From positions 1 through 54,631 of the forward strand of contig JAHJQL010000009.1 of the NCBI GenBank assembly GCA_018819065.1: 54,631 nt of DNA, given 5' to 3'. A program made the translations under genes and the position numbers. The notes under the pieces were generated by a model. That model was not told the DNA's origin and ran no database searches. It saw only the letters and a program-made list of their open reading frames with translations. Shown here in pieces: positions 1,618-33,085 of this stretch. Numbering within the stretch: the stretch's first letter is position 1; the number at the start of each line of letters is the position of its first letter. Source of the DNA: Nanobdellota archaeon. Its GTDB lineage: Archaea > Nanobdellota > Nanobdellia > Woesearchaeales > GCA-2686295.

Positions 1618-1761
1618 ATGACTAGAAAAACCGTAGCGTTAAGTTTAGATTTAGAAATCTATGAACAATATCAAAAGTATTGTGAAGAGAATCACATGAT
1701 TTTATCTCGAAAAGTTGAAGCCTTAATGAAGAAGGAGTTAGATGAACAAAATGGGAAATAA
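1618..1761 (+). CDS. Small ribbon-helix-helix (CopG/Arc-like) protein
   Basis: This 47-residue frame starts with ATG at 1618 behind a strong ribosome binding site (AGGTGGTGATT). The N-terminal TRKTVALSLDLE looks like the DNA-binding beta strand of a ribbon-helix-helix protein. It is followed by two helices containing the typical Ser-Arg-Lys-Val-Glu-Ala-Leu turn. It overlaps the HsdR start by 20 nt, so it heads the restriction operon and probably represses or tunes it. A TATA-like run (AATATTTATAAATATATG) lies at about 1569-1588. An antitoxin role is possible but no toxin partner is seen. Confidence 0.7.
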   Translation: MTRKTVALSLDLEIYEQYQKYCEENHMILSRKVEALMKKELDEQNGK

Positions 1762-4315: not shown

Positions 4316-4421
4316 TTGTGGCGAATATGCCATAATTGAAGAGTGTATAAAATGGTAAAAGAGAGTAAAATTCACTTAGTTCCATTATGGAACCTACTTG
4401 TCTTTAAAAGGTAAATTTAAA

Positions 4422-5246: not shown

Positions 5247-7647
5247 TTCAGAAACAAAAAGACGAATAGACACAGCAAGAGATATTCTTGTTGGTAAGAT
5301 TCCAGACCCTAAATCACAGATTGAACAAATAACTATTGCTTTAATCTATAAGTTCATGGATGATATGGATAAAAAATCAGAGGAATTGGGTGGAAAAGCT
5401 AAGTTTTTTACTTCGGCTTATTCTAAATATGCTTGGAATAAATTAATGGATGCTTCTGTTAGTGGTTTTGAGTTAGTGAATACTTATGGAGAAGCAATTC
5501 AAAGTATGAATCAAAATCCTAATTTGTCCCAATTATTCAGAGACATTTTCAAAAATGCCTATCTCCCATATAGAGACCCTGAAACATTAAAAGCATTTTT
5601 AAGAATAATTGATGATTTTAAGTATGACCATTCTGAAAGATTGGGGGATGCATTTGAATATTTACTTTCGGTTATGGGTTCTCAAGGAGATGCTGGACAG
5701 TTTAGAACTCCAAGACATATTATTGAATTTATTGTTGATGTAGTAGATCCAACTGTAAATGATACAATATTAGACCCTGCTTGCGGAACTGCTGGTTTTT
5801 TGATTTCTGCATATAAGCATATTGTAGAAAAAAACATGAAAGATGGAAAATTGCAGTTGAGTCCTGATAAGAGAAAGAAATTAGTTGAAAATGTTGTTGG
5901 TTATGATATTTCTCCTGATATGGTTCGATTATCTTTAGTAAATTTATATTTACATGGATTTAAAGATCCCCATATTTATGAGTATGATACGTTAACATCT
6001 GATGAAAAGTGGGATGAACAGTTTGATGTTTGTTTAGCAAATCCTCCATTTATGACTCCAAAAGGAGGAATTAGGCCACACAAAAGATTTTCTGTAAGTT
6101 CTAATCGTGCTGAAGTTCTTTTTGTCGATTATATGCATGAACATTTGAATAATGATGGAAAAGCAGGGATTATTGTCCCAGAAGGAATTATATTTCAATC
6201 AGGTTCTACATATAAGCAATTGCGTAAATTGTTAATTGAGAATTCTCTTTATGCTGTTGTTTCATTACCTGCTGGAGTGTTTAATCCATATTCCGGAGTT
6301 AAGACTTCAATATTGTTTTTGGATAAAAAGATTGCTAAGAAAACCAAAGAAATTCTATTTGTAAAAGTTGAAAGTGACGGTTTTAATCTTGGAGCACAGA
6401 GAAGAGAGATTAAAGATAATGATTTGCCTATGGCTTTGGAAATATTGCAAGATTATCAAGATGCGATATTGAATAATCAAGAACTTTTGAACAGACAGTA
6501 TGGGGTTGAAGGGCAATATATCGCTCATGTAGTTCCAAAAGATAAAATAAAAGAAAACGATTGGAATCTATCTGGAGACAGATATAAAGAGGAAGTTGTT
6601 TATGATGGGAGTTGGGAGCTGGTTGAGTTAGGAGAAGTTTGTGAGATTAAAAGAGGAAGTACAATAACTCAAAAAATAGCTATTAATGGAGAAATTCCTG
6701 TAATCGCTGGAGGGCAACAACCTGCTTATTACCATAATGAAGCAAATCGAGAAGGGGATATTATCACAGTAAGTGGTTCTGGAGCTTATTCAGGTTTTGT
6801 TGCCTATTTTGAAAGTCCAATATATGCTTCAGATTGTTTTACAATTAACCCAAAAAACAAAAAGAGACTACTTACAAAATATGTTTATCATTTATTAAAG
6901 GGAAAACAAGATGAAATATATAAACTTCAAACAGGAGGAGCTCAACCTCATGTTTACCCTAAAGATTTAATTTCTTATAAAATCCCTCTTCCACCTCTTG
7001 AAATCCAGGAAAGAATAGTTGAAGAGATTGAAAACTATCAGAATATTATTGAGGGGGCTAAGAAAGTTGTTGAGAGTTATAAACCAAGCTTTAAGATTGA
7101 TAAGGATTGGGAAATGGTTGAGTTGGGTACTGTGGCTGAAATAGTCTCAGGTCAATCTCCTGAGAGCAAATATTATAACAAAGAAGGAAAAGGTAGCCCA
7201 TTTTATCAAGGTAAAACTGAATTCGGAGATATGTTTATTGGATCACCTAAAAATTGGACTACAAAAATAACAAAATCTGCAGAAAAAGATGATATTCTAA
7301 TGTCTGTACGTGCACCAGTTGGACCAATTAATTATTCTACACAAAAAATTTGTATAGGAAGGGGCTTGGCAGCTATTCGTCATAATAAAAAAATTGAGAA
7401 AACATATCTTTTTTCCTATTTAACAAGTATAAAAGATAAAATAAAAGGAAATGGAGGGGCCGTTTTTGATTCAATAAGTCGTGATCAAATAGCTAAAATT
7501 AAAATCCCCCTTCCACCTATTGAAATTCAAAAAGAGATTGTTGCTAGAATTGAAGAAGAGCAGAAACTTGTTGATTCTAATAAGAAACTAATTGAACTTT
7601 TTGAGAAGAAAGTTAAAGATAAGATTGCTGAGGTTTGGGGAGAATAA
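5239..7647 (+). CDS. Type I DNA methyltransferase fused to specificity subunit (HsdM-HsdS)
   Basis: One 802-residue chain carries both modification and specificity functions. Residues 1-430 are an N6-adenine methylase with an HsdM N-terminal helical part, SAM motif DPACGTAGF (near 178) and catalytic ANPPF (near 267). Residues 455-800 are an HsdS-like unit with two target-recognition domains, each followed by a conserved helix beginning IPLPP-x-EIQ (near 581 and 755). These internal repeats are the hallmark of S subunits. Most type I systems encode M and S separately. No stop codon or frameshift is seen at the junction, so this is a real fusion. It overlaps the KilA-N gene. Confidence 0.92.
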   Translation: MLDSETKRRIDTARDILVGKIPDPKSQIEQITIALIYKFMDDMDKKSEELGGKAKFFTSAYSKYAWNKLMDASVSGFELVNTYGEAIQSMNQNPNLSQLFRDIFKNAYLPYRDPETLKAFLRIIDDFKYDHSERLGDAFEYLLSVMGSQGDAGQFRTPRHIIEFIVDVVDPTVNDTILDPACGTAGFLISAYKHIVEKNMKDGKLQLSPDKRKKLVENVVGYDISPDMVRLSLVNLYLHGFKDPHIYEYDTLTSDEKWDEQFDVCLANPPFMTPKGGIRPHKRFSVSSNRAEVLFVDYMHEHLNNDGKAGIIVPEGIIFQSGSTYKQLRKLLIENSLYAVVSLPAGVFNPYSGVKTSILFLDKKIAKKTKEILFVKVESDGFNLGAQRREIKDNDLPMALEILQDYQDAILNNQELLNRQYGVEGQYIAHVVPKDKIKENDWNLSGDRYKEEVVYDGSWELVELGEVCEIKRGSTITQKIAINGEIPVIAGGQQPAYYHNEANREGDIITVSGSGAYSGFVAYFESPIYASDCFTINPKNKKRLLTKYVYHLLKGKQDEIYKLQTGGAQPHVYPKDLISYKIPLPPLEIQERIVEEIENYQNIIEGAKKVVESYKPSFKIDKDWEMVELGTVAEIVSGQSPESKYYNKEGKGSPFYQGKTEFGDMFIGSPKNWTTKITKSAEKDDILMSVRAPVGPINYSTQKICIGRGLAAIRHNKKIEKTYLFSYLTSIKDKIKGNGGAVFDSISRDQIAKIKIPLPPIEIQKEIVARIEEEQKLVDSNKKLIELFEKKVKDKIAEVWGE

Positions 7648-18238: not shown

Positions 18239-18703
18239 TTAATCAGCGTTAATGTTTATTAGCTCAGGCTCTCCAAGGAATGATTCTCTCTTTAAGTCTT
18301 CAATTACATAGTAAACGTTCTTGTTTAACACCTTGAATTTTCTCTCAAACAACTCTAAGAAATCTTCCATCTCTTTGATGTGCTTGAATACTCCTTCAAC
18401 CATGAAGTCGTAGCCATTGTTTATCTTGAACAATGAGTTGACGTTCTCGTTGCAAAGCAAGTAGTTTTTTGCAAGGTCTCTGTCTTCAATCTCAACTTTT
18501 AAGATTATGTTGGCTCTGCAAAGGTATCCTAGCTTTGAAAAGTCTATTATTGTTGTGTGCTTTGTTATGATATCTTTTTCTAGAGATCTCAGCTTGTCGT
18601 ATAATGTTGATATTGGAACACTGGTCTTCCTGCTGATGGTTGTTAGGGTTTCTCTTGCATCCTTTCTTAGGTACGCCAAAAATAGTATGTCTTTTTTCTT
18701 CAT
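18239..18703 (-). CDS. Lrp/AsnC-like transcriptional regulator
   Basis: The 154-residue protein has an N-terminal helix-turn-helix (ILFLAYLRKDARETLTTISR, VPISTLYDKLRSLEKD) and the linker IIDFSKLGYLCRANIILKV typical of Lrp-family proteins. A degenerate RAM-like effector half follows. The ribosome binding site GAGGTG stands directly before the ATG. Upstream at about 18800-18830 is a very AT-rich run with TATATATAT. It converges on ftsZ. The regulated genes are unknown. The fold assignment is good, the family within Lrp-like proteins less so. Confidence 0.8.
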   Translation of the reverse strand: MKKKDILFLAYLRKDARETLTTISRKTSVPISTLYDKLRSLEKDIITKHTTIIDFSKLGYLCRANIILKVEIEDRDLAKNYLLCNENVNSLFKINNGYDFMVEGVFKHIKEMEDFLELFERKFKVLNKNVYYVIEDLKRESFLGEPELININAD

Positions 18704-18827: not shown

Positions 18828-19835
18828 TTATTTTAGATGATGATAATCAATAAGCTTTTCTATAAGCGCAATCTTCTTTTTAGAATCTGAAATGCTCAAA
18901 CCAACAAACTCCTTCACCTGCCTTAAATAACGCTTTCTAGGACTAACAAAAATATTTGGTGCTCTAAGTCTCTTTAACTCAAACAAGAAATATCGAATGT
19001 TATACTTAAAAGCAAAAAAATTCCTCAAATGATTGTCTATTGGATTAATATGCAATAAAATTAGATTTCTTAAACGTTCAACATCATCTGTTTGAACCTC
19101 TATATGTTTATCAGTCAAGGAACGCTGCAAGATTCTTATTATCCAAGCATTGTTATCCTTGGAAAAAGAACAGTTCTCTTGGAGAAACTTAATGTTATTT
19201 CTCGTGCTATACTGATATAAATCTCTAGTTTTTGGCAAAATCAAGTATCTCACAAGGCTCTTTACAGCTTTGATATAGTGTGTTTGCTTTTTATACTCGT
19301 TTTTTTCTCTTAAAATCCGAAGATAATAATGAATAGCATCTTGGAAGTATCTCTCAGAAGAATCTTTATAATTAAATCTTCTCTTTAATAAACTCCTTAT
19401 ATCTTCATCTCCTTTTAAGATGACTGGTGCAAAAAAGTTCTTGAGCCTCAACTTTATCGCTGGAAGCCATATTATTTGCAAGTCAACATTCTCAAGCGCG
19501 TTTTCTGGAACACATAGCCCTCTAACGATATCCATCTTTTTATTCTTCATAGCAACAAGTTTTTTATTCTTCAAAGCCTTAACATATTCAAAGAATGAAT
19601 CAATGAAAACAATGATATCATAGTCGCTGACATAGATTATTTTGTCCTTCTTTTTCTTTATTAGTCCTTCTCCATAAGAAAAACCACCCCAAAGACCAAT
19701 AGTTGGGTCTGACACCTCTACTGACAAGAATTGTGTTATCTCTTCTAAGTCATCTCTTACTCTCTTATTGAGCTCTTCATCATTTGAGATGCAAAACTGC
19801 TGTCTTTTAATTCTAGGAAAAAATGTTTTATCCAT
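18828..19835 (-). CDS. Nucleotidyltransferase-fold protein, 335 aa
   Basis: Residues 45-130 carry the nucleotidyltransferase signature: GLWGGFSYGEG, then SDYDIIVFID, then a third acidic strand VDLQIIW. The Asp-x-Asp and later Asp needed for metal-dependent nucleotide transfer are all present. The remaining 200 residues are helical and basic. The start lies 1 nt from the stop of a second protein with the same signature (19837-20949), so the two are co-transcribed paralogues. They adjoin a cluster of radical SAM and glycosyltransferase genes. The substrate is unknown: sugar phosphate, RNA and protein are all possible. Confidence 0.7.
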   Translation of the reverse strand: MDKTFFPRIKRQQFCISNDEELNKRVRDDLEEITQFLSVEVSDPTIGLWGGFSYGEGLIKKKKDKIIYVSDYDIIVFIDSFFEYVKALKNKKLVAMKNKKMDIVRGLCVPENALENVDLQIIWLPAIKLRLKNFFAPVILKGDEDIRSLLKRRFNYKDSSERYFQDAIHYYLRILREKNEYKKQTHYIKAVKSLVRYLILPKTRDLYQYSTRNNIKFLQENCSFSKDNNAWIIRILQRSLTDKHIEVQTDDVERLRNLILLHINPIDNHLRNFFAFKYNIRYFLFELKRLRAPNIFVSPRKRYLRQVKEFVGLSISDSKKKIALIEKLIDYHHLK

Positions 19836-19836
19836 C

Positions 19837-20949
19837 TTATAATTTTATAACTAGAGGATTCTTCCTCTTATAAAATGCTGTCTGCTCCAAACACCACAAA
19901 AATCTCTCCTTTGGATTTGAAAGTTTGCTTTTTTGCCTGTTAATATTGAAAATGTTGCTTTCCACGTTTTTTAACAGTCCTTCATCTATCTTTAAATCTT
20001 TTTTTATACAGTTGACAAGATTTATCTTATTTAGTAAGTTGAGGCTGCATATGTTAAATATTCTAACCCAATTAATATTTACTTTTTGTTCTTTTAAGGA
20101 TAGTATCAACATCAAGCTGTTCTTTATTTTTAGAAAAAATGATGTTTTTTTTAAAATCCTGCTGTGAATATCATTCCTTTTATCAGTCAGATACGTTCTT
20201 GAAAGGGCTTTATCAACAAGACTTTTTGCTTTGAACCACAATTCTTTATTTTTAATTCTTATATTGTGATTAGGATTAAGCTTTTTGTCTAAACAGCGTT
20301 TGTAAAACATCTTTTCTTCCAAGCTTAAAAATCTTTTTTTAACCAGTTCTTCATATATTTGTTTGTTGCTGAATGTTTTATATCCTTTAGTATTTGTCAG
20401 ATAGTATATCTGCAATGATTCAATAACAGCCAGGATGATTTTTCTAACATCTTCCTGACTTTGTTCTTTTAAGGGGTGACTTAACAAAAGACTTGTGTAA
20501 ACTTGTTCAGTCTTATATATTAAATCACAATCTCTAAATCTTTCATACTTCTTTTTTTTATAAAAATCATCATCATTAAACAGAGCCACACCTTCTTTTA
20601 TATCTCTTTGAATTCCAACAATCTCAAATGGTTTCCACGTGAAACTCAAGTCAGCCCTCTTGTTAGTCAAAATATATTTTTTTCTATCCAAGTCTTGTTT
20701 TAATTGTTTTATCTTTGATAAATCTCTAAAAAACCTCAAAGGGTTATAGTAATCTAATATTATGAACAAGTCGTAATCACTAAAGAATGCTGTTTTTTTG
20801 TTTTGAAAAGAAACACTTCCTTCATCATAGTAAAAACTTCCCCGAAGAATAATTGTTGACTTTGGAAAATATTTTAATATCTCACATTTTATAATGCTTA
20901 TATCTTTATTAATTATCCTTGCAACCCGCTTATTTCTTAGATTAATCAC
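19837..20949 (-). CDS. Nucleotidyltransferase-fold protein, 370 aa
   Basis: This is a distant paralogue of the next gene downstream. Residues 30-110 show ILRGSFYYDEGS, FFSDYDLFIILDY and a third acidic residue in RADLSFTW, so the catalytic triad of the nucleotidyltransferase fold appears intact. The remainder is helical, Lys-rich and unrecognised. A pair of such proteins with different C-terminal parts suggests a heteromeric enzyme or sequential steps. It is transcribed in the same direction as the radical SAM gene at 21029-22492, with a 79-nt gap. The promoter is not clear. Confidence 0.7.
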   Translation of the reverse strand: MINLRNKRVARIINKDISIIKCEILKYFPKSTIILRGSFYYDEGSVSFQNKKTAFFSDYDLFIILDYYNPLRFFRDLSKIKQLKQDLDRKKYILTNKRADLSFTWKPFEIVGIQRDIKEGVALFNDDDFYKKKKYERFRDCDLIYKTEQVYTSLLLSHPLKEQSQEDVRKIILAVIESLQIYYLTNTKGYKTFSNKQIYEELVKKRFLSLEEKMFYKRCLDKKLNPNHNIRIKNKELWFKAKSLVDKALSRTYLTDKRNDIHSRILKKTSFFLKIKNSLMLILSLKEQKVNINWVRIFNICSLNLLNKINLVNCIKKDLKIDEGLLKNVESNIFNINRQKSKLSNPKERFLWCLEQTAFYKRKNPLVIKL

Positions 20950-21028
20950 TTTTTTAACCTTTTAAAGTGAATGTTTTTCCTGTTTTTTTAATTCTTCCGA
21001 CATTTTTTTATATTATGCGTTAGGATAA

Positions 21029-22492
21029 TTATTCTTTTTGCATTGATTTTATCTGTTTGAAAAGAGCTATTTCCGGTGCAAAATAATATATGTGGTGTCT
21101 ACATCTAAAATCTGCAACAAATCTATATTTTTCAACTAAAAATTTTACAAATCTGTTTTTTAAATGTTTTTGTATCCCCTCATTTAAAAAGTATGTGATA
21201 AGACAAATTCTTTGAAGTTTTTTCTTATCTTTTCCTGTTAACCACGGATTATGTGGCTCCATGTAATCAAAATAAATCCAATCTTCAAGTTTTTTTGGTA
21301 CTTCATATCCTGTTTTTTTTAATTCTTCAAAAAGAGTCGTTCCAGGATACAATGATAATATTTTCAAACCTAAAATGGTTGCTTGCGGATTTTCATCTTT
21401 TAATCTTATCATTAAAGATATAGTTTTTTTTACATCATCAAAAGTTTCTGTTGGAAAACCAACCATGAAACTGTACGATGGTTTTATTTTTGCTTTTTTT
21501 AATTTTCTATTACCTTGAAGTATTTGATTTATCGTGATTCCTTTTCCAACACTATCTAATATTCTTTGAGAGCCAGATTCAATACCCACATATATTCTTT
21601 TAAAACCTGTTTTTTTAATTTTTTTTAAAGTTTGAATTTCGCTTTTCGCTATGAAATCCATTCTACTGTTTGCAAAAAATTCTGTTTTTATACCTTCTTT
21701 TTCAACTTCGTCACAAAATTTTATTATTTCTTTTTCATCATAAAAAAATAAATCATCTAAAATACTTATTTTCATTTTGAATTCTAAACCCTTCTTTATA
21801 TTCTCTATTATTATATTAAGTGGTACTTTCCTAAAATTATTTTTTTTAAATGCGGTGTTTGTGCAGAAAGCGCAGTTGTATACGCATCCTCTTCCAGTCA
21901 CAACTGGAAATTCATCTTTTTCTTCAATCGCACCTGTATATTGATTTACATCAATGAGTTCGTAAGGCACTTTTAATGTTTTGTTTAGATCAAAAGGGTT
22001 TCTTCTTTCATTAATGATTATCTCATTATCTTTTTTATATCCTATGCCTTTGACTTTTGACAAATCTCCATCTACATCTAGTGTTTCTGTAAGTTCAACT
22101 AATGTTTCTTCTCCATCTCCTATCACTACAAAATCTATGTTTTTATTTTTCAGCGTTTCATATGGTAGGACTGATGGATGAATGCCTCCAAATATTATTG
22201 TTATTCTTTTATTTGTCTTCTTAACAAAACGAGCTATTTCTAAAGCGAACTTTATTTGAAGACCAGTCATAGTGGTTATTAATATTCTTGGTTGATGAGC
22301 ATCTTTAATAGCTTTCTTTAAGCTTTCTTTCCAGAATTTGTCAATCCTCTGATCTATAATCTTTACTTTATAACCTTTATTATAGGCTAGACTTACAGCG
22401 TACAGTAATCCGACAGGAACTCCTAAAAAAATTTTTTGTAAAAGAGTTTTTGGATACACTGCTATTAGTGTTGTTAATTCTTTTTTTGGCAT
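21029..22492 (-). CDS. B12-binding / radical SAM enzyme
   Basis: The N-terminal 140 residues are a cobalamin-binding-type Rossmann domain (LLYAVSLAYNKGYKVKIID, FGGIHPSVLP, IGDGEETLVEL) without the DxHxxG lower-ligand motif. The radical SAM domain carries C-VYN-C-AF-C near residues 202-209, then the conserved IYVGIESGSQRIL and SYSFMVGFPTET. Enzymes of this layout methylate unreactive carbons or rearrange lipids, sugars and cofactors. It is one of three such genes within 5.4 kb, alternating with glycosyltransferases. The ATG has no strong ribosome binding site. The substrate cannot be predicted from sequence alone. Confidence 0.88.
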   Translation of the reverse strand: MPKKELTTLIAVYPKTLLQKIFLGVPVGLLYAVSLAYNKGYKVKIIDQRIDKFWKESLKKAIKDAHQPRILITTMTGLQIKFALEIARFVKKTNKRITIIFGGIHPSVLPYETLKNKNIDFVVIGDGEETLVELTETLDVDGDLSKVKGIGYKKDNEIIINERRNPFDLNKTLKVPYELIDVNQYTGAIEEKDEFPVVTGRGCVYNCAFCTNTAFKKNNFRKVPLNIIIENIKKGLEFKMKISILDDLFFYDEKEIIKFCDEVEKEGIKTEFFANSRMDFIAKSEIQTLKKIKKTGFKRIYVGIESGSQRILDSVGKGITINQILQGNRKLKKAKIKPSYSFMVGFPTETFDDVKKTISLMIRLKDENPQATILGLKILSLYPGTTLFEELKKTGYEVPKKLEDWIYFDYMEPHNPWLTGKDKKKLQRICLITYFLNEGIQKHLKNRFVKFLVEKYRFVADFRCRHHIYYFAPEIALFKQIKSMQKE

Positions 22493-22660
22493 TTATTGCT
22501 AAAGTTTCTCTTTGTTTTTTAAATATTTTATGTAAACAATTTTTTGTTTTGCATAACTACCACAAATCATATTAAAAGAAGAAATTTATTGCTGTTGGTA
22601 TAAACTTTTACTGTTGAATCAAAATATTTTAAAGCAATTACACAATTATAATAATTCTTA

Positions 22661-24109
22661 ATGAAAAAAGAGGATAAATTCAATATCTTGTTCGTTTCGA
22701 CTACAAATATTCAGCCTTCTCTCTCTTTTGGCTACTTAATATCATATTTCAAGAAATATTCAGAATTGAGAGATGATTTTTGCTTTGAGATATTTGAATG
22801 TGAAAGATTGCTAGACATAATCATAACCTCTCCAAACGAGATAGTTAGAAAGGCAAAAAAATTTGATGTTGTCTGCTTTAGCACGATAACTGAGGATTAT
22901 AATTTTATACTTAAAACATCCAAAGAGATACATGACGCTGCTTCATGCAAAATATTCTTTGGAGGACATCACATATCTGCTCTTCCAGAAAAACTGCCTT
23001 CATATGTAGATGTAGGTCTTATTGGCGAAGCCGAAGAAACATTCAAAGAACTGCTAGAACTTTTAGCGAGAGGAGAGTTCAAAACTAAGAATCTTAAGAA
23101 TATTGACGGAATAGTCTATCATAACGCTAGGAAGACTATTATTACAAAGAAGAGGAAGATGATTTGGCCGCTGGACAATATTCCTCCTCCAGCAAGAGAA
23201 TATTTTAGTCGACATCATCGGGGAAAAAAGTATTGGTATAGCATGGATGAGCTGGCAGGAAAGAGAGTTGGTGTTCTAAGCGCTTCAAGGGGTTGTCCAT
23301 TCAGCTGCATCTTTTGCGACGCTAGTTTATTCTGGAACAACTCAATAAGATGGTTTAGCGAGGAGAGAATCGTTGATGAGATAAAAGAACTAATTGAGAA
23401 GTATGAAGTTGACCTGATAAAATTTAATGACAACCTAGGAATTTACAATAAAGAAAAGCTGAGAAAAGTTATAGAGTTGTTGAGAAAACAAGGGCTATTA
23501 AACAGATTTAAAGTGATAAAATACCAGTTGAGAGTTGACTTAATCGATGATGAACTGATAGAATTGCTAAAAGTTTTTGGAGTTAGAGAAATCGCTTTAG
23601 GAATTGAAACGCAGAACAAGACGCTGTTGAAAGAATTAAAAGGAGGAAAAGTGACTCCGAATATGAATAAAAAAGTGATTCTAAAACTTCTAAAAAACGG
23701 TTTTTTTGTCTGGCCAGAAATAATCGTTGGAATACCTGGAGAAGACGAGCATTCATTAAGAGAGACTCTCAAAATAACCAACATTAAAGGCGTTTTAGAT
23801 TATCACATAAGCCTATTAATACCCTACCCTGGAACTCCAATTTGGTCTTATGCAAAAGAAAAAGGATTGGTCAGCGATAATATGGACTGGGAAGAACTCA
23901 GATTGGAATTAAACGAGAAAACCATCAATATAAATGTTTTCCTTTCAACAATGGACAAACAGAAGTTTAAAGATATAATTAAGCCTTATCTTTCCAAGAA
24001 TAAGAGAGTATTAACGGTCTCAAACGTAAAGAGCCGCTTTGTGAACGGACTTAAGCTTCTAGTAACTAACCCGCGAACTTTTTATAAAGTCATGAAAGAA
24101 ATTTTATAA
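22661..24109 (+). CDS. B12-binding / radical SAM enzyme
   Basis: The N-terminal domain has FGYLISYFKKYSELRDDF, FGGHHISALPEKL and GLIGEAEETFKELL, the B12-binding domain pattern. The iron-sulfur motif CPFSCIFC lies near residues 211-218, followed by LIKFNDNLGIYN, LGIETQNKTLLKEL and PEIIVGIPGEDEHSL. The C-terminal 90 residues are helical. A TATA-like AAAATATTTTAAAG lies about 40 nt upstream of ATG 22661. A family-2 glycosyltransferase follows after 8 nt, so both are expressed together. A role in modifying a lipid or glycan is plausible. Confidence 0.88.
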   Translation: MKKEDKFNILFVSTTNIQPSLSFGYLISYFKKYSELRDDFCFEIFECERLLDIIITSPNEIVRKAKKFDVVCFSTITEDYNFILKTSKEIHDAASCKIFFGGHHISALPEKLPSYVDVGLIGEAEETFKELLELLARGEFKTKNLKNIDGIVYHNARKTIITKKRKMIWPLDNIPPPAREYFSRHHRGKKYWYSMDELAGKRVGVLSASRGCPFSCIFCDASLFWNNSIRWFSEERIVDEIKELIEKYEVDLIKFNDNLGIYNKEKLRKVIELLRKQGLLNRFKVIKYQLRVDLIDDELIELLKVFGVREIALGIETQNKTLLKELKGGKVTPNMNKKVILKLLKNGFFVWPEIIVGIPGEDEHSLRETLKITNIKGVLDYHISLLIPYPGTPIWSYAKEKGLVSDNMDWEELRLELNEKTININVFLSTMDKQKFKDIIKPYLSKNKRVLTVSNVKSRFVNGLKLLVTNPRTFYKVMKEIL

Positions 24110-24117
24110 GAATAAAT

Positions 24118-25014
24118 ATGAAAATGAGCAAAAAAATACTTGTTAGCGTTGTCATACCAACATATAATAGGCAGCACTATCTAAAAAACTGTTTAGAAAG
24201 ACTCGCAAACCAGACAATCTCGCAAAACTCATTCGAAGTAATTGTTGTTGATGATGGTTCAACGTGTGATATTTCTAGAGTCACAAATCAATTCTCAAAC
24301 AGGATAAAAAACCTTTCTTTAATAAGAATAGAGGATAATACGGGAAAGCCTGGGTTTGTTCGAAATACAGGAGTAAAAAGAGCAAAAGGTGACGTGGTGG
24401 CATTTATTGATGATGACTGCATCGCAGCAATTGATTGGATTGAAAAAATAGTGTTTTACCACAAAAGATTTAGAAATATAAATGTTATTCAAGGATTGTT
24501 AGACAATGCTAATAAGAAGAATGTTTATGGTGTTTTGTGGAAATTCATTCTTGACCTAAACATCAATCAAAAGACGAGGCATTCGAAGTTAAAATATGAT
24601 TACATCGATTTGCTTGGCACTGACAATCTATCTGTCAAAAAAAGAATATTTAATAAATTTGCTTTCAGCAACGATTTAAATGCTCGGGAAGACGAACTTT
24701 TCAGGTTGCAGTTAAAAAAATCATCTATTGATATATTATACATTCCAGGAATTGCAGTTAAACATGACTGCAGGAAAACCTTGTTCTCTTTTTTAAAACA
24801 GAATTTTATATACGGATCAGCAGATTTTTCAATGAAAAAATCATTCTCGAATGATAAGACTACGTCGCCTTCGCTGATGAACTTTGCCATCTTTAAATTG
24901 TTGTTTCAAAAACACGGATTTTCTAAGTGCATCAAGATGTTTGTTCTAATAATTCTTAAAAACGTGGCTTATTTAACGGGTTTTTTGCATCAGAAACTAT
25001 TTGTAAGAGCTTAA
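24118..25014 (+). CDS. Family 2 glycosyltransferase
   Basis: A GT-A fold enzyme: VVIPTYNRQHYLKNCLERL at the N-terminus, the nucleotide-binding VVDDGST near residue 42, GFVRNTGVKRAKGDVV, and the metal-binding FIDDDC near 98. The acceptor-side acidic motif NAREDELFRLQ is also present. The C-terminus has a hydrophobic stretch (FVLIILKNVAYLTGF) that may attach it to the membrane. It lies 8 nt behind the upstream radical SAM gene, and its last 18 nt overlap the end of the convergent radical SAM gene. It would transfer a sugar from a nucleotide donor to an unknown acceptor. Confidence 0.9.
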   Translation: MKMSKKILVSVVIPTYNRQHYLKNCLERLANQTISQNSFEVIVVDDGSTCDISRVTNQFSNRIKNLSLIRIEDNTGKPGFVRNTGVKRAKGDVVAFIDDDCIAAIDWIEKIVFYHKRFRNINVIQGLLDNANKKNVYGVLWKFILDLNINQKTRHSKLKYDYIDLLGTDNLSVKKRIFNKFAFSNDLNAREDELFRLQLKKSSIDILYIPGIAVKHDCRKTLFSFLKQNFIYGSADFSMKKSFSNDKTTSPSLMNFAIFKLLFQKHGFSKCIKMFVLIILKNVAYLTGFLHQKLFVRA

Positions 25015-26436
25015 AAAGAGGTTTCTTACCATGCTCATAAACTTTTTAAAAATGTACTTGTAAAAAGTAAAGCTTATATAACCATTTTTTAATGCATAGT
25101 GGGCCTGAAGAATCATGCCTTTGTTCTTCATTGCAAGCATTTCAGACCTCTTTATATTAGGAAGCGAAATTGTTAAATCATCGCCTAAAGCGCTAGGTGT
25201 AGTTGTTTCTTTTATTAAGTTATATTTCTGGCAAGTACTAAACATTGCAGAGCCAGGTATTGGAACAGCGAAATTCCAAGATATATAATCCAACAGGTTG
25301 TTTTTCAGAAGTTTTTTAGCGAATCTGTAAGTGTTGTTGCACATATCCAAGTCTTCATAACATAACCCATTCTCATCTTCCCACACGTTAAATATTATGA
25401 AGAACCCACCTATTTTAAGACCGTTTCTCTTGAGTATCTCACATGCTTTGACGACTTGTTTTAAATCTATATTCTTTCTTATGCCATCCAATGTTTTCTG
25501 GTTTGCACTCTCTATTCCCAGATGAACAAACCAAAAACCTGCCTTTCTGAGGTTTTTTCCAAGTTCTTCTGTGACGTTGCTGGCGTGTAGTTGACATTTC
25601 ATGCTCAAGCCATTCAGATTGAGTTTTTGTATCTCTTCACATAAAGAATTCGCGTATTTCAATGAAACGTTTAACTCATCAGAGTAGTCATATATCTCTT
25701 TTATGCCGTGTTTTGTTACTAAAGTTCTTATTTCAGCAGCAACATTCTTCGGACTCCTGTTTCTAAACCATGGTTTTTTTGACTTCCAAACAGGACTAGA
25801 GCAAAAGTTGCAATCAAACGGGCAACCCCTAGATGAGATTATACACACATCAAGTGTTTGCTTCTTATAAAAATAGCCTTTATATCTTTTGAGATTAACC
25901 AAGTCCCAAGATGGAAACGGCAATTTGTTAATATTAGCCTGCAGTAACCTTTCATGATTCTTAAGTATTTTTTTTTCTTTTTTAAATGCAATACCTTTAA
26001 CATTTTTCAAATCTTTAATCTGCCCTTTGAAGTAATGCACTAATTCGCTAAAAGTCTCTTCACCTTCACCAATTATGCATATATCGGCTCCTGCGAGTAA
26101 CATATCGTCCGGATTTGAGGTAGGATAAACTCCTCCGCATACAATAATCATATCATGATATCTTTTTTTTAGCTCTTTTATCAACTGTATACTTATGTTT
26201 GAAGTGATATATGCTACAGATAAAGCTAAAATGTTTGGTTTTTCCTTTTCAATAACCTTAAGATATTTCTTGAGATAATAATCCCCTTCAAAGTAACTTA
26301 CAAAAACGTCACTGTGATATTTTCTAACATAAGACATTAAGTATAACAAACCTAAATTTGGATAAAACCTGTGATCCTTGGTGCTGTTTTTTGTCAGCGG
26401 AGGATTTGCAAAAAGAATTTTCATCTTTGTATTCAT
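24997..26436 (-). CDS. B12-binding / radical SAM enzyme
   Basis: This is the third enzyme of this type in the cluster. The B12-binding-like domain (LGLLYLMSYVRKYHSDVFVS, VCGGVYPTSNPDDML, ICIIGEGEETFSEL) is followed by the iron-sulfur motif CPFDCNFC near residue 205, then EIYDYSDELNVS, FVHLGIESANQKTL and IGGFFIIFNVWEDE. The C-terminal part ends in a helical tail. It is divergent from the glycosyltransferase at 26491, with about 54 nt between their starts, so they share a promoter region. The order of acidic and glycine motifs is intact. The substrate is unknown. Confidence 0.88.
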   Translation of the reverse strand: MNTKMKILFANPPLTKNSTKDHRFYPNLGLLYLMSYVRKYHSDVFVSYFEGDYYLKKYLKVIEKEKPNILALSVAYITSNISIQLIKELKKRYHDMIIVCGGVYPTSNPDDMLLAGADICIIGEGEETFSELVHYFKGQIKDLKNVKGIAFKKEKKILKNHERLLQANINKLPFPSWDLVNLKRYKGYFYKKQTLDVCIISSRGCPFDCNFCSSPVWKSKKPWFRNRSPKNVAAEIRTLVTKHGIKEIYDYSDELNVSLKYANSLCEEIQKLNLNGLSMKCQLHASNVTEELGKNLRKAGFWFVHLGIESANQKTLDGIRKNIDLKQVVKACEILKRNGLKIGGFFIIFNVWEDENGLCYEDLDMCNNTYRFAKKLLKNNLLDYISWNFAVPIPGSAMFSTCQKYNLIKETTTPSALGDDLTISLPNIKRSEMLAMKNKGMILQAHYALKNGYISFTFYKYIFKKFMSMVRNLFLSSYK

Positions 26437-26490
26437 ATACTGTTTAAATAAGCATTTAATTTATAAATATTCTTTGTATTAACAATAGTC

Positions 26491-27450
26491 ATGAAGCAAA
26501 TTAGAGTGTCAGTTGTTGTATTGACAAGAAACAGGCCTCAATACTTGAGAACTTGTTTGGAAAGCATAAAAAAACAAGATTATCCTGAACAATCTTTTGA
26601 AGTCATTGTTGTTGATAATAATTCTTCAGAAGAAAACGCTGTTTTGAACAAAGAGATAGTCTCAAGAAATGGCTTTGCAAGATATATTTGTGAAAGCAAG
26701 ATTGGTGTTTCATTTGCGAGAAATACAGGGGTTAAGCTGGCAAGATATGAATACGTAGCATTCATAGCGGATGATTATGAACTATCTGTTGATTATTTGG
26801 CTAGTGTGAATTCTTTGTTCCAAAAAAATAAGCACATCAATGTTTTGTGTTTTAACATAGTATCTGATGATAAAAAATCAATACAAAAAGTAAACCAGTA
26901 TTATTATGAGACAAAGAGATTATTAGCAATCAAAGAAGAACAATCAATCACCAAGAAAATATTTTCTGCAAAACAAATCTCATTTGATGATAAACCTCAT
27001 AAAGTACCTCATTATCCCGTTTCAGGAGCTGCAGTCATTAAAAAAACTGTGTTTGATAAAGCAGGTTTATTTGACGAAACATTCTTTTTGTGTGAAGACG
27101 TTGATTTTGGAATTAGACTTAACAAGAAAGGTATTTGTGCTTATTACTCCTCTGCTGTTAAGATAAAACAAAAAAACGAGGCAAATCTGTTCTTGAGCCT
27201 TAAGCGACAGTTCGTCTATGGAAAATTCTATGTTGTTCTAAAGAATCGCTGGTCGGACTATTCAAGAATTGTTCCAAGAAGCACTTTTGGATACATCTTT
27301 TTTCTGCTCTTGTCACCATTTATATCTTTGTGGAGGTGTAGTCTTAGCCGGAATCTAATGAAATTTCTTTTTTACTTTCTTTTCATTCTGTTGTTTGACA
27401 TCACTTTTTTTTTAGGAGCGATTTTTCAATCATGTCGCGGGAAACTATAG
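26491..27450 (+). CDS. Membrane-anchored family 2 glycosyltransferase
   Basis: The GT-A motifs are VVVLTRNRPQYLRTCLESI, VVDNNSSEE near residue 41, GVSFARNTGVKLAR, FIADDYELS as the Asp-x-Asp region, and FLCEDVDFGIRLNKKG as the acceptor-site acidic motif. The last 70 residues contain two hydrophobic segments (FGYIFFLLLSPFISLW and FLFYFLFILLFDITFFLGAI), so the enzyme probably acts at the inner face of the membrane on a lipid-linked acceptor. It is followed after 36 nt by a large polytopic protein and is likely co-transcribed with it. Confidence 0.9.
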   Translation: MKQIRVSVVVLTRNRPQYLRTCLESIKKQDYPEQSFEVIVVDNNSSEENAVLNKEIVSRNGFARYICESKIGVSFARNTGVKLARYEYVAFIADDYELSVDYLASVNSLFQKNKHINVLCFNIVSDDKKSIQKVNQYYYETKRLLAIKEEQSITKKIFSAKQISFDDKPHKVPHYPVSGAAVIKKTVFDKAGLFDETFFLCEDVDFGIRLNKKGICAYYSSAVKIKQKNEANLFLSLKRQFVYGKFYVVLKNRWSDYSRIVPRSTFGYIFFLLLSPFISLWRCSLSRNLMKFLFYFLFILLFDITFFLGAIFQSCRGKL

Positions 27451-27486
27451 ATAATTTTTTATATCTAAATCAAAACAGTTTAATGC

Positions 27487-29175
27487 ATGGGGGTTTTTAA
27501 TGGTAAGGAGTGGAAGATTTTCTTCACTTTCTGGATTGTCTACTCAGCGTTTTCTATGTACATTACTTGGAATGAGAATACGCGGCTTGATTTGACTTTG
27601 GCTGTTGTTGAAGAGGGAAGGTTTTCCATAGATTCTTATTATAAGAATACTGGTGATAGGTCTTTTTTTAAAGGTCATTATTATACTGATAAGATGCCTG
27701 GGATGAGTTTTATAGACATTCCAGTCTATGTCGCTTTTAAATTCTTTTTTGGAACGCCTGAATTGCATTATCATCTGTACAATGTGGGTGTTACTGACTC
27801 GTGGCTGTTGTTTGTACTATTGAGCATAATATTTACTTCTGCATTATTTGGCTCTTTGTCAGTTGTGCTGGTCTATAAGATATCTGATTATTTCACGAAT
27901 AAAGAATTGCACAGGAATCTCATAGTTATAGTTTATGGATTTGGCACACTGATATTTGTCTATTCAAGGTTCTTTTACGACCATGTTACGAGTGCATTCT
28001 TTGCTTTTTTATGTTTCTACCTGATATTTAAGATGAAATATGATAAGAACAGCAGGGATTATAGTTTTCTTGCAGGTCTGGCTGGTGGACTGGCGGTCTT
28101 AGTCTCGATTCCAAGCATATTTTTAGTGTTTGGTTGTTTTATCATGCTGATTCTCTTTAAATCTATTAGAAGAACTGCTTTATTCTTACTGGGCTTTGTT
28201 CTTGTAATGCTAATCCTTATGTTTTACAATAATTCTGCTTTTGGACACCCTCTGCATATGGGGTATGATTATCCTGATCCACAAGTAGTTAGCATGTACC
28301 CTGATGAGTGCAGAAGCCCAAAAACTTTTGAAGATAAAATTCATTGTGAAGCATTGGAGAAAAAGAATGGTGATATTTGCAACCAGTTAAGTGGTGTTGG
28401 GATTGATAAGTGCTTGTTTTTCATTGCCGAATATACAAAAAATAACTCTTTTTGTCAATCCATTAATGATTCTGACTGGAAAGCTTATTGTGATTCAATA
28501 ATAGTTTTTGATCCTGATATTTGTGATGATATAAAAAATGAATCTATGAGAACCAGATGTGTTGGTTCAAGTCAGAAGTCTTCATCATACTTTTTAGGTG
28601 CTAGAATTAAGAATTTGCTTTATTTCTTCAAGCCTGATCGTTTAAATGTTATGATGAGATTGTTAGTTTTTCCTTACAGAGGCTTGTTCTTCTATTATCC
28701 AATTCTCATATTCTCAATAATAGGTTTATTTTTCATGTATAAATCATACAAGGTAGAAACTCTCTTGATTGTGCTATTCTTTTTGTCATTCCTGCTGTTA
28801 AACGCTCGGATATTTGCTTGGTGGGGTGGATTCTGCTTTGGTCCAAGACACTTGACTGCTTTGATGCCTTTTTTAATGATTCCTCTGCTTTTTTCCTTCA
28901 AGAAGATAAAGATGAATTACATTATACCTTTTATAGTTATATCATTATTCTTCAACCTTTTAAGCGTTCAATACCCTGAAGAAGCAGGTCTTGGGAAATC
29001 TGTTGATAATTTTATTCCATTCGGCAATCCTTTGTTTGAGCATTATTTACCTTCACTCTTAAAATATGGACCTAGGAGTACACTACTAGAGCAAGCGCTG
29101 AACTTTCAGTTTAAGCCGTTTGTTAATGTGGCTTTGTTATTGTTGATTATTTATTTTATCTGGAGAAAGAAATAA
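27487..29175 (+). CDS. Polytopic GT-C-like glycosyltransferase with Cys-rich insert
   Basis: The 562-residue protein has about ten or more membrane segments. The first outer loop contains acidic residues (RLDLTLAVVEEGRFSID, GHYYTDKMPGMSF), as in lipid-phosphosugar-dependent GT-C enzymes where such residues form the active site. The late motif WWGGFCFGPRHL is common to uncharacterised archaeal members. Between residues about 270 and 365 is an outer domain with nine cysteines in a loose repeat (C, ten to fifteen residues, C), which would be disulfide-bonded or metal-bound. It follows a membrane glycosyltransferase. It would transfer a sugar outside the cell. Assignment to GT-C is by fold pattern only. 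Confidence 0.7.
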   Translation: MGVFNGKEWKIFFTFWIVYSAFSMYITWNENTRLDLTLAVVEEGRFSIDSYYKNTGDRSFFKGHYYTDKMPGMSFIDIPVYVAFKFFFGTPELHYHLYNVGVTDSWLLFVLLSIIFTSALFGSLSVVLVYKISDYFTNKELHRNLIVIVYGFGTLIFVYSRFFYDHVTSAFFAFLCFYLIFKMKYDKNSRDYSFLAGLAGGLAVLVSIPSIFLVFGCFIMLILFKSIRRTALFLLGFVLVMLILMFYNNSAFGHPLHMGYDYPDPQVVSMYPDECRSPKTFEDKIHCEALEKKNGDICNQLSGVGIDKCLFFIAEYTKNNSFCQSINDSDWKAYCDSIIVFDPDICDDIKNESMRTRCVGSSQKSSSYFLGARIKNLLYFFKPDRLNVMMRLLVFPYRGLFFYYPILIFSIIGLFFMYKSYKVETLLIVLFFLSFLLLNARIFAWWGGFCFGPRHLTALMPFLMIPLLFSFKKIKMNYIIPFIVISLFFNLLSVQYPEEAGLGKSVDNFIPFGNPLFEHYLPSLLKYGPRSTLLEQALNFQFKPFVNVALLLLIIYFIWRKK

Positions 29176-29967
29176 CTAATATTTGAAGCATTTCTCATAG
29201 TAATCACACTGTCCACTACTCCACTTACACAGCGGGCCGGGCTTTTTTGAGTAGTCATCTATGTTTTTAGTCTTTGTTTTGCTGTGGATGTATTTGACTT
29301 CGCCGAGTGCTTCGTTTTCAAGCTTATCATCAACCATTATCAGCTGCTCTGCATGATTTAAGAAGTCTATTCCTACAAAGTTTGGTCTTTTTCCAGTTGC
29401 TTCTTTGTACATCAAAACGTACATGCCAAGCTGTAGTCTATATTCTGGAGTTATATGTGTCTTGCTTCCAGTCTTATAATCCAATATGACTACGTTGTCA
29501 TTCTTTTCAAATATTGCATCGATGAATCCGCGAAGCTGATGATTATCTGACAAAAACTCTTTTTCTCTAATAGGTGTTAAGTGCTTGAATGCGTCTGAAA
29601 AGCTTCTTCCACTCTTTATTTGTTGGTGAAGCTTCTTTCTAAATCTACCAAACCATTTTTGAAGCGTGCTCTTCGTTTCAGAGTAGTAGGATTTTATCTT
29701 GCTTTCTTCCATGTCAAGCTCTAAGAATTCAGAATAGTTCTCTGCCCAAGTCTTGTCTAAGAGCCAAAACAAATGAACTCTCAAGTCATCTTCAGTTTGA
29801 ATGGTTTTGTCAATGTCAAAGAATTTTTCAAGCACAGAATGAACAATTTTTCCCCTAATTAAATAAATGCTTGGCTTTGAGGGAAGCTCTTCAATATATC
29901 TGTAGTAATACTTCCTTGGACACTGCTTGTAAGTGTTTATGCTGCTTGGACTCTGTACTCTACTCAT
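29176..29967 (-). CDS. RecB-like PD-(D/E)xK nuclease with Cys cluster
   Basis: The 263-residue protein belongs to the Cas4/RecB-type nuclease superfamily. It shows the SSINTYKQCPRKYYYRYI start, RGKIVHSVLEKF, the catalytic LRGFIDAIFEKN and VVILDYKTGSK, and a downstream YRLQLGMYVLMYKE. Cysteine 17 and the three C-terminal cysteines (CKWSSGQCDYYEKC) match the pattern that holds an iron-sulfur cluster in Cas4 and AddB. No CRISPR array or other cas gene lies in the window, so it is more likely a stand-alone repair nuclease. Its start overlaps the end of ileS by 8 nt. Confidence 0.88.
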   Translation of the reverse strand: MSRVQSPSSINTYKQCPRKYYYRYIEELPSKPSIYLIRGKIVHSVLEKFFDIDKTIQTEDDLRVHLFWLLDKTWAENYSEFLELDMEESKIKSYYSETKSTLQKWFGRFRKKLHQQIKSGRSFSDAFKHLTPIREKEFLSDNHQLRGFIDAIFEKNDNVVILDYKTGSKTHITPEYRLQLGMYVLMYKEATGKRPNFVGIDFLNHAEQLIMVDDKLENEALGEVKYIHSKTKTKNIDDYSKKPGPLCKWSSGQCDYYEKCFKY

Positions 29968-32900
29968 TTTCTATGTAAATCACTACTTTGCGATTCTTTA
30001 TATTTGCTTCGCTTTTAAACTTTAGACTCTTGACATTAGAGCCCATCTCCATTGACTTTGCACCAACTTTGTTCTTTATATCATCAACAAAGGCTTCTAA
30101 ATTCATGTCTGTCTTTAATCCAAGCTTTATCCTCTGCTCTTTTTTAAAGCCTGAATCCTTCCTCAACTGCTGTATTCTTCTGATTATCTCTCGCACAAAA
30201 CCTTCCTTTTCAAGCTCTGGATTTGTAGTGATGTCAAGCAGAACTATTCCTCCTTTAAAATCAGCTATCTTTGTATCTTTTGGTTCAACCTTCTCAATCT
30301 CAAAATGATCTTTTCTTAGTTCAAAGGTCTTAATCTTTATCTTGTCTTGTGTCTTTAACAAGTCTTTTATCTTATCTTTTTCTTGGTTTATAAGCTCTGC
30401 AACGCTGCCTGTTTCTGTTCCAAAGTCTTTTCCAAGATTTCGAAAGTTGGGCTTTACTTTTAAGTCATATTCGATTTTGCCGTATACAACTTGTTTTACG
30501 TTGACCTGTTTTTTTAACAGGTGCTCTAAATGCTTTACCTTGTCTGTGACTTCTTTGTCAGCTTCAATGATTAGTTTTTTCAAAGGCCAGCGTACTCCAA
30601 TCTCACTCTTATCCCTACATGAAAGAGCGGCTGCGATTACTTCCTGAACAACATCCATGTCTTCTTCTAACTTAAGGTTAGAGTTCTCTGCTTTTGGAAG
30701 TTCCTCTAAATGTATTGATGCTTTTAAGCCACGATTTAACTTCTTCATATTCTGATATATCTTCTCTGTTATGAAAGGAGAGATTGAGGCTATCAAGATT
30801 AGCGTTTTTGTCAAGCAATGGTTTATAATGCTTAAAGGATTCTTGTCATCAATCAACCTGTCTCTTATTAGTTGGACATAAGTTCTGCTTAAATCGTCAA
30901 CCAAGAAATTCTGAACAACCCTGCCTGCAAGGTGTAAGTTGAAAGATTCTATATTCTCACTTACCTCTTTTATGGTGGTGTTTAATCTTGAAATTATCCA
31001 CTTGTCTTCAAGTTCTTTTACGCTGAGCTTTTCAAGCTTGTCTGCTTGTGAAAGCACAAAGACGTGCAGGTTCCAAAGTGTGTTGAATACTTTTCCCATC
31101 TCATTTTTCACAGTTTCCATGTTAAACTTTTGAGTGCTTGAAGGATCAACATCCCAGCAGTAATAAAATCTTAAAGCGTCTGCACCAACCTCTTCTAATG
31201 CATCCTTTGCGCCAATAACGTTTCCAAGCGACTTGCTCATCTTCTCTGCGTTCTTGTCAAGAACCCAGCCAGGCATGGAGATTGTCTTGTAAGGCTCCTT
31301 GTTAAACACGGCAATACCACAGAACATTAAATGGTAGAACCACCCTCTAATCTGGTCTTGTGACTCATTAATCCTGCTTACAGGGTAATGTTCTTCAAAG
31401 AGTTTCTTGTTCTGAAAAGGATAGCCTAGTGATGCGAATGGTGCGCAGCCAGAGTCAAACCACACATCAAATATGTCATTTATGCGACTGACATTCTTTC
31501 CGCACTTACACTTTAGGTGTACATTGTTGACTGTGTGCAGGTCGAAGTTATCAGGAATTTTCTTAATACTTTTTTTCTTAAGTTCATCAAAAGAGCCTAT
31601 CGTTATTACTTCTCCGCATTCACACTTCCAGATAGGAATTGGGATTCCCCAGTATCTCTGCCTTGAGAAGTTCCAGTCTTCAGCATTAGTTATCCAGTTT
31701 CTCAGGCGCTCTCTTGCAAACTCTGGTTGCCAATTGATATCTTCATTGGCTTTGAGCATCTTCTTCTTCACAGATTCAATCTTTAGGAACCACTGGTTGC
31801 TAAGCCTGAAAATCAGTGGAGCCTTGCATCTCCAACACAAAGGATATGAATGTTCAATAGTGGAGTAATGAAGCAGTCTTCCGGTTTTGTGAAGAACTTC
31901 AGATATTGCGTGATCTGCTTGTTTTACAAACTCTCCTTTGAACTGGCCAACTTCATCAGTGAATTTGCATTCATCATCAAGCGGGCTTATCATAGGAATA
32001 TTATAATGAATACCAACCTCGTTGTCAGTTTTTCCATGGCCAGGGGCTGTGTGTACAAGGCCTGTTCCTTCCTCTACTGATACAAAGTGTTCATGAACAT
32101 CTTTTGTAGAAATGCCTTTCTTTGCTCCAATCTTTGATGCTACACGCTCTTTTAAGATTGGAATTGAAGCATAAACTTTCAAAGCGTTTGGATTCTTGTC
32201 AAGCTCTCTTTGGATTGGAACATCAAGTATAGACTCGTACTTTGTGCCGACGAGTTTTTTTCCTTTGAAAGTTTCTAATACTTCAAACTTCACATCCAAG
32301 TCTTTTAAGGTTTTAAGACAGTTCTTCGCTAATATAAGGTTTCCATCCTTCTCAGTTTTCACTTTAACATAATCCTCGTCATCCTTACAGGCAATAGCAA
32401 CGTTTGCAGGCAGAGTCCATGGAGTTGTTGTGTAGATTAATAGGTTGTCATCCTTTGTGCCTTTTACTTTGAACTTTATGAATATTGATGGGTCCCTAAC
32501 ATTTTTATACGAATCTGTTACTTCATAACCAGCAAGCGCTGTCTGACACTTTGGACACCAAAAAACCGGTTTTTTACCCTCATAAACCATATCCTTGTTC
32601 CAAAGAGTGTTAAAAGCCCACCAGGCAGATTCGATGTATGAATTATCATATGTCAGATATGGTTCTTTTGAAGAATAATAAGATCCAAGGTTGTCATAGA
32701 CTTCCAACCACAAATCCTTGTTTAAAGCAGCGCTTTCTCTGCATATCTTCATGAATTTATCAACGCCAAGTTTTTCAATATCTTTCTTAGACTGAAGTTT
32801 TAACTTCTTTTCAACCATGTTTTCAATAGGCAAGCCGTGAGTGTCAAAGCCCGGCTGGAAAAAAACGTTTTTTCCCTTCATGAAATTCCATTTTATGTAT

Positions 32901-33085
32901 AAATCCTTGTACACAGTATTTCTGATGTGACCAACGTGAGGAACATAGTTGGCGTAAGGAGGACCGTCAAGCAAGAAGTATTTTTCACCTTTAGAATTCT
33001 TCTTATTAAGCAGAGTTATCAAGCCTATCTTCTTCCAAAGAGCTTTAACCTCTTTTTCAACTTCGCAAAAATCAAATTTTTTCAT
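29960..33085 (-). CDS. ileS: Isoleucyl-tRNA synthetase
   Basis: Charges tRNA-Ile with isoleucine. At 1041 residues it has the class I catalytic signatures PHVGH (HIGH motif, near residue 50) and EKMSKSLGN (KMSKS motif, near 616). The editing domain has TTTPWTLPANVAIA and HTAPGHGKTD. Zinc-binding cysteines (CWRCKAP, then CECGEV and KCKCGKN) and an anticodon-binding C-terminal part are present. The gene begins 98 nt from the divergent NAD kinase gene. GGTG upstream of ATG 33085 serves as ribosome binding site. No defects were noticed. Confidence 0.97.
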   Translation of the reverse strand: MKKFDFCEVEKEVKALWKKIGLITLLNKKNSKGEKYFLLDGPPYANYVPHVGHIRNTVYKDLYIKWNFMKGKNVFFQPGFDTHGLPIENMVEKKLKLQSKKDIEKLGVDKFMKICRESAALNKDLWLEVYDNLGSYYSSKEPYLTYDNSYIESAWWAFNTLWNKDMVYEGKKPVFWCPKCQTALAGYEVTDSYKNVRDPSIFIKFKVKGTKDDNLLIYTTTPWTLPANVAIACKDDEDYVKVKTEKDGNLILAKNCLKTLKDLDVKFEVLETFKGKKLVGTKYESILDVPIQRELDKNPNALKVYASIPILKERVASKIGAKKGISTKDVHEHFVSVEEGTGLVHTAPGHGKTDNEVGIHYNIPMISPLDDECKFTDEVGQFKGEFVKQADHAISEVLHKTGRLLHYSTIEHSYPLCWRCKAPLIFRLSNQWFLKIESVKKKMLKANEDINWQPEFARERLRNWITNAEDWNFSRQRYWGIPIPIWKCECGEVITIGSFDELKKKSIKKIPDNFDLHTVNNVHLKCKCGKNVSRINDIFDVWFDSGCAPFASLGYPFQNKKLFEEHYPVSRINESQDQIRGWFYHLMFCGIAVFNKEPYKTISMPGWVLDKNAEKMSKSLGNVIGAKDALEEVGADALRFYYCWDVDPSSTQKFNMETVKNEMGKVFNTLWNLHVFVLSQADKLEKLSVKELEDKWIISRLNTTIKEVSENIESFNLHLAGRVVQNFLVDDLSRTYVQLIRDRLIDDKNPLSIINHCLTKTLILIASISPFITEKIYQNMKKLNRGLKASIHLEELPKAENSNLKLEEDMDVVQEVIAAALSCRDKSEIGVRWPLKKLIIEADKEVTDKVKHLEHLLKKQVNVKQVVYGKIEYDLKVKPNFRNLGKDFGTETGSVAELINQEKDKIKDLLKTQDKIKIKTFELRKDHFEIEKVEPKDTKIADFKGGIVLLDITTNPELEKEGFVREIIRRIQQLRKDSGFKKEQRIKLGLKTDMNLEAFVDDIKNKVGAKSMEMGSNVKSLKFKSEANIKNRKVVIYIENE

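Follow-up and report, generated by a model that had tools for sequence, protein, structure and literature searches.

What does a DPANN archaeon build with eight neighbouring genes that encode two nucleotidyltransferase (NTase)-fold proteins, three B12-binding radical S-adenosylmethionine (SAM) proteins and three glycosyltransferases? The genes lie at 18828–29175 of the window, that is, the 54,631-nucleotide stretch of contig JAHJQL010000009.1 (Nanobdellota archaeon) analysed here, and a first-pass annotation had proposed that they form one unknown surface pathway. We read the region as a variable island for the assembly of a surface glycan or glycolipid in a marine DPANN archaeon of Woesearchaeota type, a reading to which we give a probability of about 60%. 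It is based on the joint occurrence of family 2 (GT2) and GT-C glycosyltransferases, an enzyme class that C-methylates sugars, and NTases found in glycosylation loci. Most parts of the island are ordinary for the lineage, and the NTase family is its unusual part and the one worth pursuing.

Recurrence of island modules in related genomes

The GTb/GTC pair is the conserved core of the island. GTb (26491–27450, + strand) is a GT2 glycosyltransferase with a C-terminal hydrophobic segment, and GTC (27487–29175, +) follows 36 bp further on. We assigned GTC provisionally to the GT-C glycosyltransferases, of PMT/ArnT-like type, because it combines a PMT_2 match just under the Pfam cut-off (25.6 against 26.1 bits), a sub-cut-off NCBIfam match to the LA_3751/LA_3752 putative glycosyltransferase family (69 against 200 bits) and about nine hydrophobic segments; a sequence search of the PDB gave no relatives. 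Its orthologues are 59% identical in genomes G091 and G214 and 49% identical in G372. The companions of GTC in G091 and G214 are a GTb relative, an SGNH hydrolase and a protein of 668/638 residues, the G091 copy of which is a GT2 domain fused to a radical SAM-SPASM protein. In G372 some 6 kb separate the gene from the pair of nuclease and isoleucyl-tRNA synthetase (IleRS) genes that also borders the island in the window. The remaining GT2 glycosyltransferase, GTa (24118–25014, +), carries a C-terminal hydrophobic segment at residues 271–290 and is related to the GT2 half of the GT2-radical SAM fusion of the congeners. Both GTa and GTb scored above the Pfam cut-off for Glycos_transf_2.

The island breaks into sub-modules (NTB-GTC, GTb-GTC and RS1-GTC) that recombine between loci. 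An NTB relative begins 29 bp past a GT-C paralog in G091 and is followed there by a methyltransferase, radical SAM proteins, a deaminase and more NTA-like genes; the G320 copy of NTB overlaps a weaker, more distant GT-C relative at the latter's end. The relatives of RS1 in G372 and G069 also adjoin GT-C paralogs. Such repeated NTase-GT-C and RS1-GT-C pairing at differing loci and in different genomes points to functional coupling. Related neighbourhoods exist beyond the genome of origin and the NTases match no RNA-modifying family in Pfam, NCBIfam or PADLOC, so that neither observation named in the first-pass annotation as refuting its idea was made. A surface glycan or glycolipid role for the genes is well supported by the compared neighbourhoods. 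The idea of a single eight-gene pathway is not supported; the complete set was seen in no other genome examined.

GTC also contains a module of eight cysteines set at regular intervals over about 84 residues (Cys 275–358; 28294–28572, +), which is kept in all four orthologues. Comparable stretches were seen in further proteins of the order. Separately, MurB-like and MurA-like (EPSP-synthase family) genes were seen near the GT-C orthologue of G091, and the genome of the window has a MurA-like gene and a fusion of a Mur ligase with an M23 peptidase domain (L066:15821-17910, L070:12202-13488, L069:4247-5851), which suggests that muramic-acid-type chemistry may operate in this archaeal genus.

The nucleotidyltransferase pair

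NTA (18828–19835, − strand, 335 aa) and NTB (19837–20949, −, 370 aa, GTG start) are separated by 1 bp and belong to an unclassified family. Both carry the G[GS], DxD and third acidic residue that mark the Pol-beta superfamily, namely G50 G51, D71/D73 and an Asp within VDL (117–119) in NTA, and G37 S38, D58/D60 and D100 in NTB. In an 11-row alignment the common motif reads G[GS]F..(G/D)E... and then D.D, with the G, F, E and both Asp invariant; the third Asp is replaced in two G091 copies and otherwise kept in the relatives. The full acidic triads announced by the first-pass annotation are thus intact, and the NTase fold itself is read from these motifs, from weak AlphaFold2 (AF2) models and from Foldseek.

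No curated profile of Pfam, NCBIfam or PADLOC was matched above its cut-off by NTA or NTB. The Polbeta profile reached 4 of the 11 family members (best E-value 0.0019), with NTB at 11.8 bits against a cut-off of 26.9, and sequence searches found no relatives of the pair in the PDB. The AF2 models had mean predicted local distance difference test (pLDDT) values of 54 and 52. These values are poor because the alignments had only six rows, the same six for both models, which are hence not fully independent. Still, the order of strands and helices fits an NTase domain with a helical region after it, the C-terminal part of NTA being helical, and the best Foldseek matches of these low-confidence models were aminoglycoside nucleotidyltransferases, AadA for NTA (E-value 0.0029) and ANT(4'') for NTB (E-value 0.047). 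We regard this apparent resemblance as a lead, not proof.

With NTA alone as query, eight genomes in the phylum sample gave matches, among them its own, and a profile of eleven members matched 18 of 371 genomes. A narrower scan of a genome collection returned only two loci, in the records named DPANN archaeon NIOZ-UU113 and Candidatus Woesearchaeota ARS1441, and searches of viral contigs and plasmids gave no NTase relatives. Within the genus the family is patchy, being present in three of six genomes (G000, G091 and G320).

A distant branch of the family occurs in other orders of the class. In each of the 11 loci examined (L022–L027, L081–L085) the NTase gene is accompanied by a co-directional type I phosphodiesterase gene, its direct neighbour in seven cases and one gene away in four; since the loci were picked for holding the NTase, these counts express association and not exclusivity. 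Most of them are of AglB/AglH type and most have an LPG_synthase_TM protein; AglB-like, AglH-like, GT2, GT83-like, epimerase and B12 radical SAM genes turn up often. Gene labels in these loci stand for similarity to reference proteins, which were confirmed in Pfam for the phosphodiesterase, LPG_synthase_TM, GT2, epimerase and methyltransferase; the AglB-like, AglH-like, GT83-like and deacetylase labels come from our own reading of the sequences, those of AglB and AglH from one reference locus.

B12-binding radical SAM proteins

RS1 (21029–22492, −), RS2 (22661–24109, +) and RS3 (24997–26436, −) each matched the B12-binding and Radical_SAM families above the Pfam cut-offs and have an intact CxxxCxxC motif. 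Finer assignment failed, as the three proteins scored only 117–151 bits against BchE (cut-off 481) and fell far below every other NCBIfam equivalog cut-off, so that none of the characterised enzymes covered there (BchE, HpnJ, HpnR, AprD4 and others) was reached.

RS1 falls in a supported clade (100/94) with the proteins of G372 and G069 mentioned above and one further protein of its own genome. RS3 is a weak sister (87/87) of a clade made up of seven radical SAM proteins from the NTase loci of other orders and one protein of its own genome, and RS2 is a long branch for which no orthologue was found. In targeted searches, the basis of all our statements about the genome of origin, that genome had 25 places with a match to RS1 (E ≤ 0.001), whereas two congeners had 5 and 6; the places in the genome of origin also cluster in several other loci. 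Because the family is so expanded, three such proteins side by side are not rare here. Clusters of B12 radical SAM, GT2 and GT-C genes are moreover common in the genus, and the earlier remark that these catalytic classes rarely meet was overstated for the lineage.

Layout and flanks of the island

All eight ORFs of the first-pass annotation were found in their stated places, along with the classes it gave them. From NTA to GTC their strands run − − − + + − + +, which rules out a single operon. Besides the 1-bp and 36-bp gaps already described, NTB and RS1 are 79 bp apart and RS2 and GTa 8 bp; RS1/RS2 and RS3/GTb are divergent, and GTa and RS3 overlap tail to tail by 18 bp. The island thus comprises at least four transcription units over both strands.

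This layout bears on the alternative that survives best, in which the eight genes make no joint product and are mere neighbours: two or three cargo modules with no relation to each other (NTA-NTB-RS1, RS2-GTa, RS3 and GTb-GTC), gathered in a single variable island. Mixed strands, the failure to find the complete set elsewhere, the presence of NTases in only half of the six genus genomes, and an NTase locus in G091 that differs from that of the window all favour it. Against it stands the recurrence of the NTase-GT-C and RS1-GT-C pairings across loci and genomes, and we consider such loose cargo rather unlikely.

The island sits between housekeeping genes. To its left lies a group of ligase, FtsZ and helix-turn-helix (HTH) regulator genes, of which the Lrp/AsnC-like HTH gene (18239–18703, −) is the nearest and lies outside the island; this flank is kept in G091 and G214 without the island. 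The G+C content of NTA, NTB and RS1 is low, 0.28–0.32 versus 0.36–0.44 in this flank, which speaks for the island reading. To the right are a PD-(D/E)XK (Cas4/RecB-like) nuclease (29176–29967, −) and IleRS (29960–33085). The latter is only 39–40% identical to the IleRS of two congeners and of one family member, while FtsZ is 88–90% identical, and in G372 the nuclease has next to it a partial IleRS that matches the window copy much more closely; the genus thus seems, by sequence, to have two IleRS types. Elsewhere in the window, at 1742–7647, there is a Type I restriction-modification set with an HsdR-like protein, an HsdM fused to HsdS, and a KilA-N protein between them.

Proposed role and its alternatives

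If the island does assemble a surface glycan, GTa and GTb would make a sugar chain or a polyprenyl-linked sugar at the inner face of the membrane, and RS1–RS3 could introduce a C-methyl group or a similar radical modification on the sugar or its lipid. In the order that we infer, NTA and NTB, with their aminoglycoside-NTase-like build, would then transfer a nucleotidyl or phosphoryl-linked group from a nucleoside triphosphate or a nucleoside diphosphate compound to a glycan hydroxyl. GTC would add the final sugar outside the membrane from a polyprenyl-phosphate sugar, and its eight-cysteine module may hold the acceptor. Placing a nucleotidyl or phosphoryl-linked group on a glycan or lipid-linked sugar, together with C-methylation by the radical SAM proteins, would accordingly be the most likely function of the island. 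The data show the gene identities, the NTase motifs and the conserved neighbourhoods, and from these we infer the order of the pathway, its substrates and the transfer onto a sugar.

Several observations weigh against a common surface-glycan product. None of the island ORFs encodes a flippase, a phosphodiesterase or an enzyme of sugar-nucleotide synthesis; contig C32 of the same genome carries a candidate ABC-2 type permease and an ATPase, recognised by eye. Searches of G214, G371 and G372, which keep GT-C or its paralogs, gave no NTases, although G371 and G372, like G320, are only 83–84% complete. RS2 and RS3 lack a close orthologue in a glycan context, the structural models of the NTases are poor, with Foldseek E-values above 0.001, and the genes are divided among several transcription units.

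A more specific proposal is that the NTases represent a new class of DPANN glycan-modifying nucleotidyl or phosphoryl transferases which, together with an alkaline-phosphatase-superfamily phosphodiesterase encoded in N-glycan loci, would attach and cut back a nucleotide- or phosphodiester-linked group on archaeal surface glycans. We put it forward tentatively and think it unlikely as it stands. For the NTase step alone, and with a probability that overlaps that of the surface-glycan reading, the proteins could instead be LicD/fukutin-like transferases of phospho-alditol or phosphocholine type using a cytidine diphosphate-activated donor, the phosphodiesterase of the related loci being a head-group transferase or remover. 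NTase-fold enzymes of the FKRP/fukutin kind put ribitol phosphate on glycans (PMC6965139 and PMC4873967), and the pairing of phosphodiesterase and NTase relatives in 11 of 11 loci would suit this idea. However, none of the 11 NTase members had a LicD match in Pfam at E-values up to 0.5, and Foldseek placed aminoglycoside nucleotidyltransferases first, not FKRP, so this version appears improbable. That the pair are RNA-modifying (CCA-adding, poly(A)/uridylyl) or toxin-antitoxin/defence NTases is very improbable: they share the superfamily and show weak Foldseek matches to MNT antitoxins, HEPN proteins and Cid1, but they match no such family in Pfam, NCBIfam or PADLOC and their neighbourhoods are those of surface glycans.

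The surface-glycan reading matters since surface glycans probably play a central part in the way small DPANN cells interact with hosts and surroundings, and their chemistry is little known; our literature search for DPANN gene clusters that combine surface-glycan and radical SAM genes gave no pertinent paper. The repeated pairing of an unclassified NTase family with a phosphodiesterase gene in loci of AglB/AglH type offers a concrete, testable lead to glycan decoration, and the window illustrates how such loci are reshuffled inside one genus.

Comparison with known systems

Aminoglycoside nucleotidyltransferases act on sugar-like small molecules. Those closest to NTA and NTB (ANT(4''), AadA and AAD(9)) appear to share with them a GS/DxD NTase domain followed by a helical domain and gave the best Foldseek matches, to poor models; they differ in that NTA and NTB have no PDB sequence match and are tied to surface-glycan genes. 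The LicD/fukutin/FKRP phospho-donor transferases are likewise NTase-fold enzymes acting on glycans (PMC6965139, PMC4873967), while the window family lacks the LicD Pfam match. A precedent for an NTase-annotated protein working on a phosphorylated peptide is PsmN of the pseudomycoidin cluster, which is linked to the addition of a hexose to the phosphoserine of a lasso peptide (PMC9266682).

Sister surface loci (L068:11380-12399, L020:4034-5083, L071:14839-15897) hold, beside radical SAM genes, another NTase family, NTP_transf_5 (PF14907), which appears to be unrelated to that of the window. As an identity for the NTA/NTB family it was rejected, with an hhalign probability of 0.2%, no Pfam match and no detectable homology. 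RS1–RS3 are of the same enzyme class as GenK, the B12-dependent radical SAM enzyme that C-methylates the aminoglycoside gentamicin (PMC12689558), but they remain far below every NCBIfam equivalog cut-off. Finally, the island differs from archaeal N-glycosylation clusters in having no AglB or AglH-like gene among its ORFs and in its PMT/ArnT-like GT-C; yet it is in such clusters of other orders that the distant NTase relatives lie, together with GT2, LPG_synthase_TM and B12 radical SAM genes.

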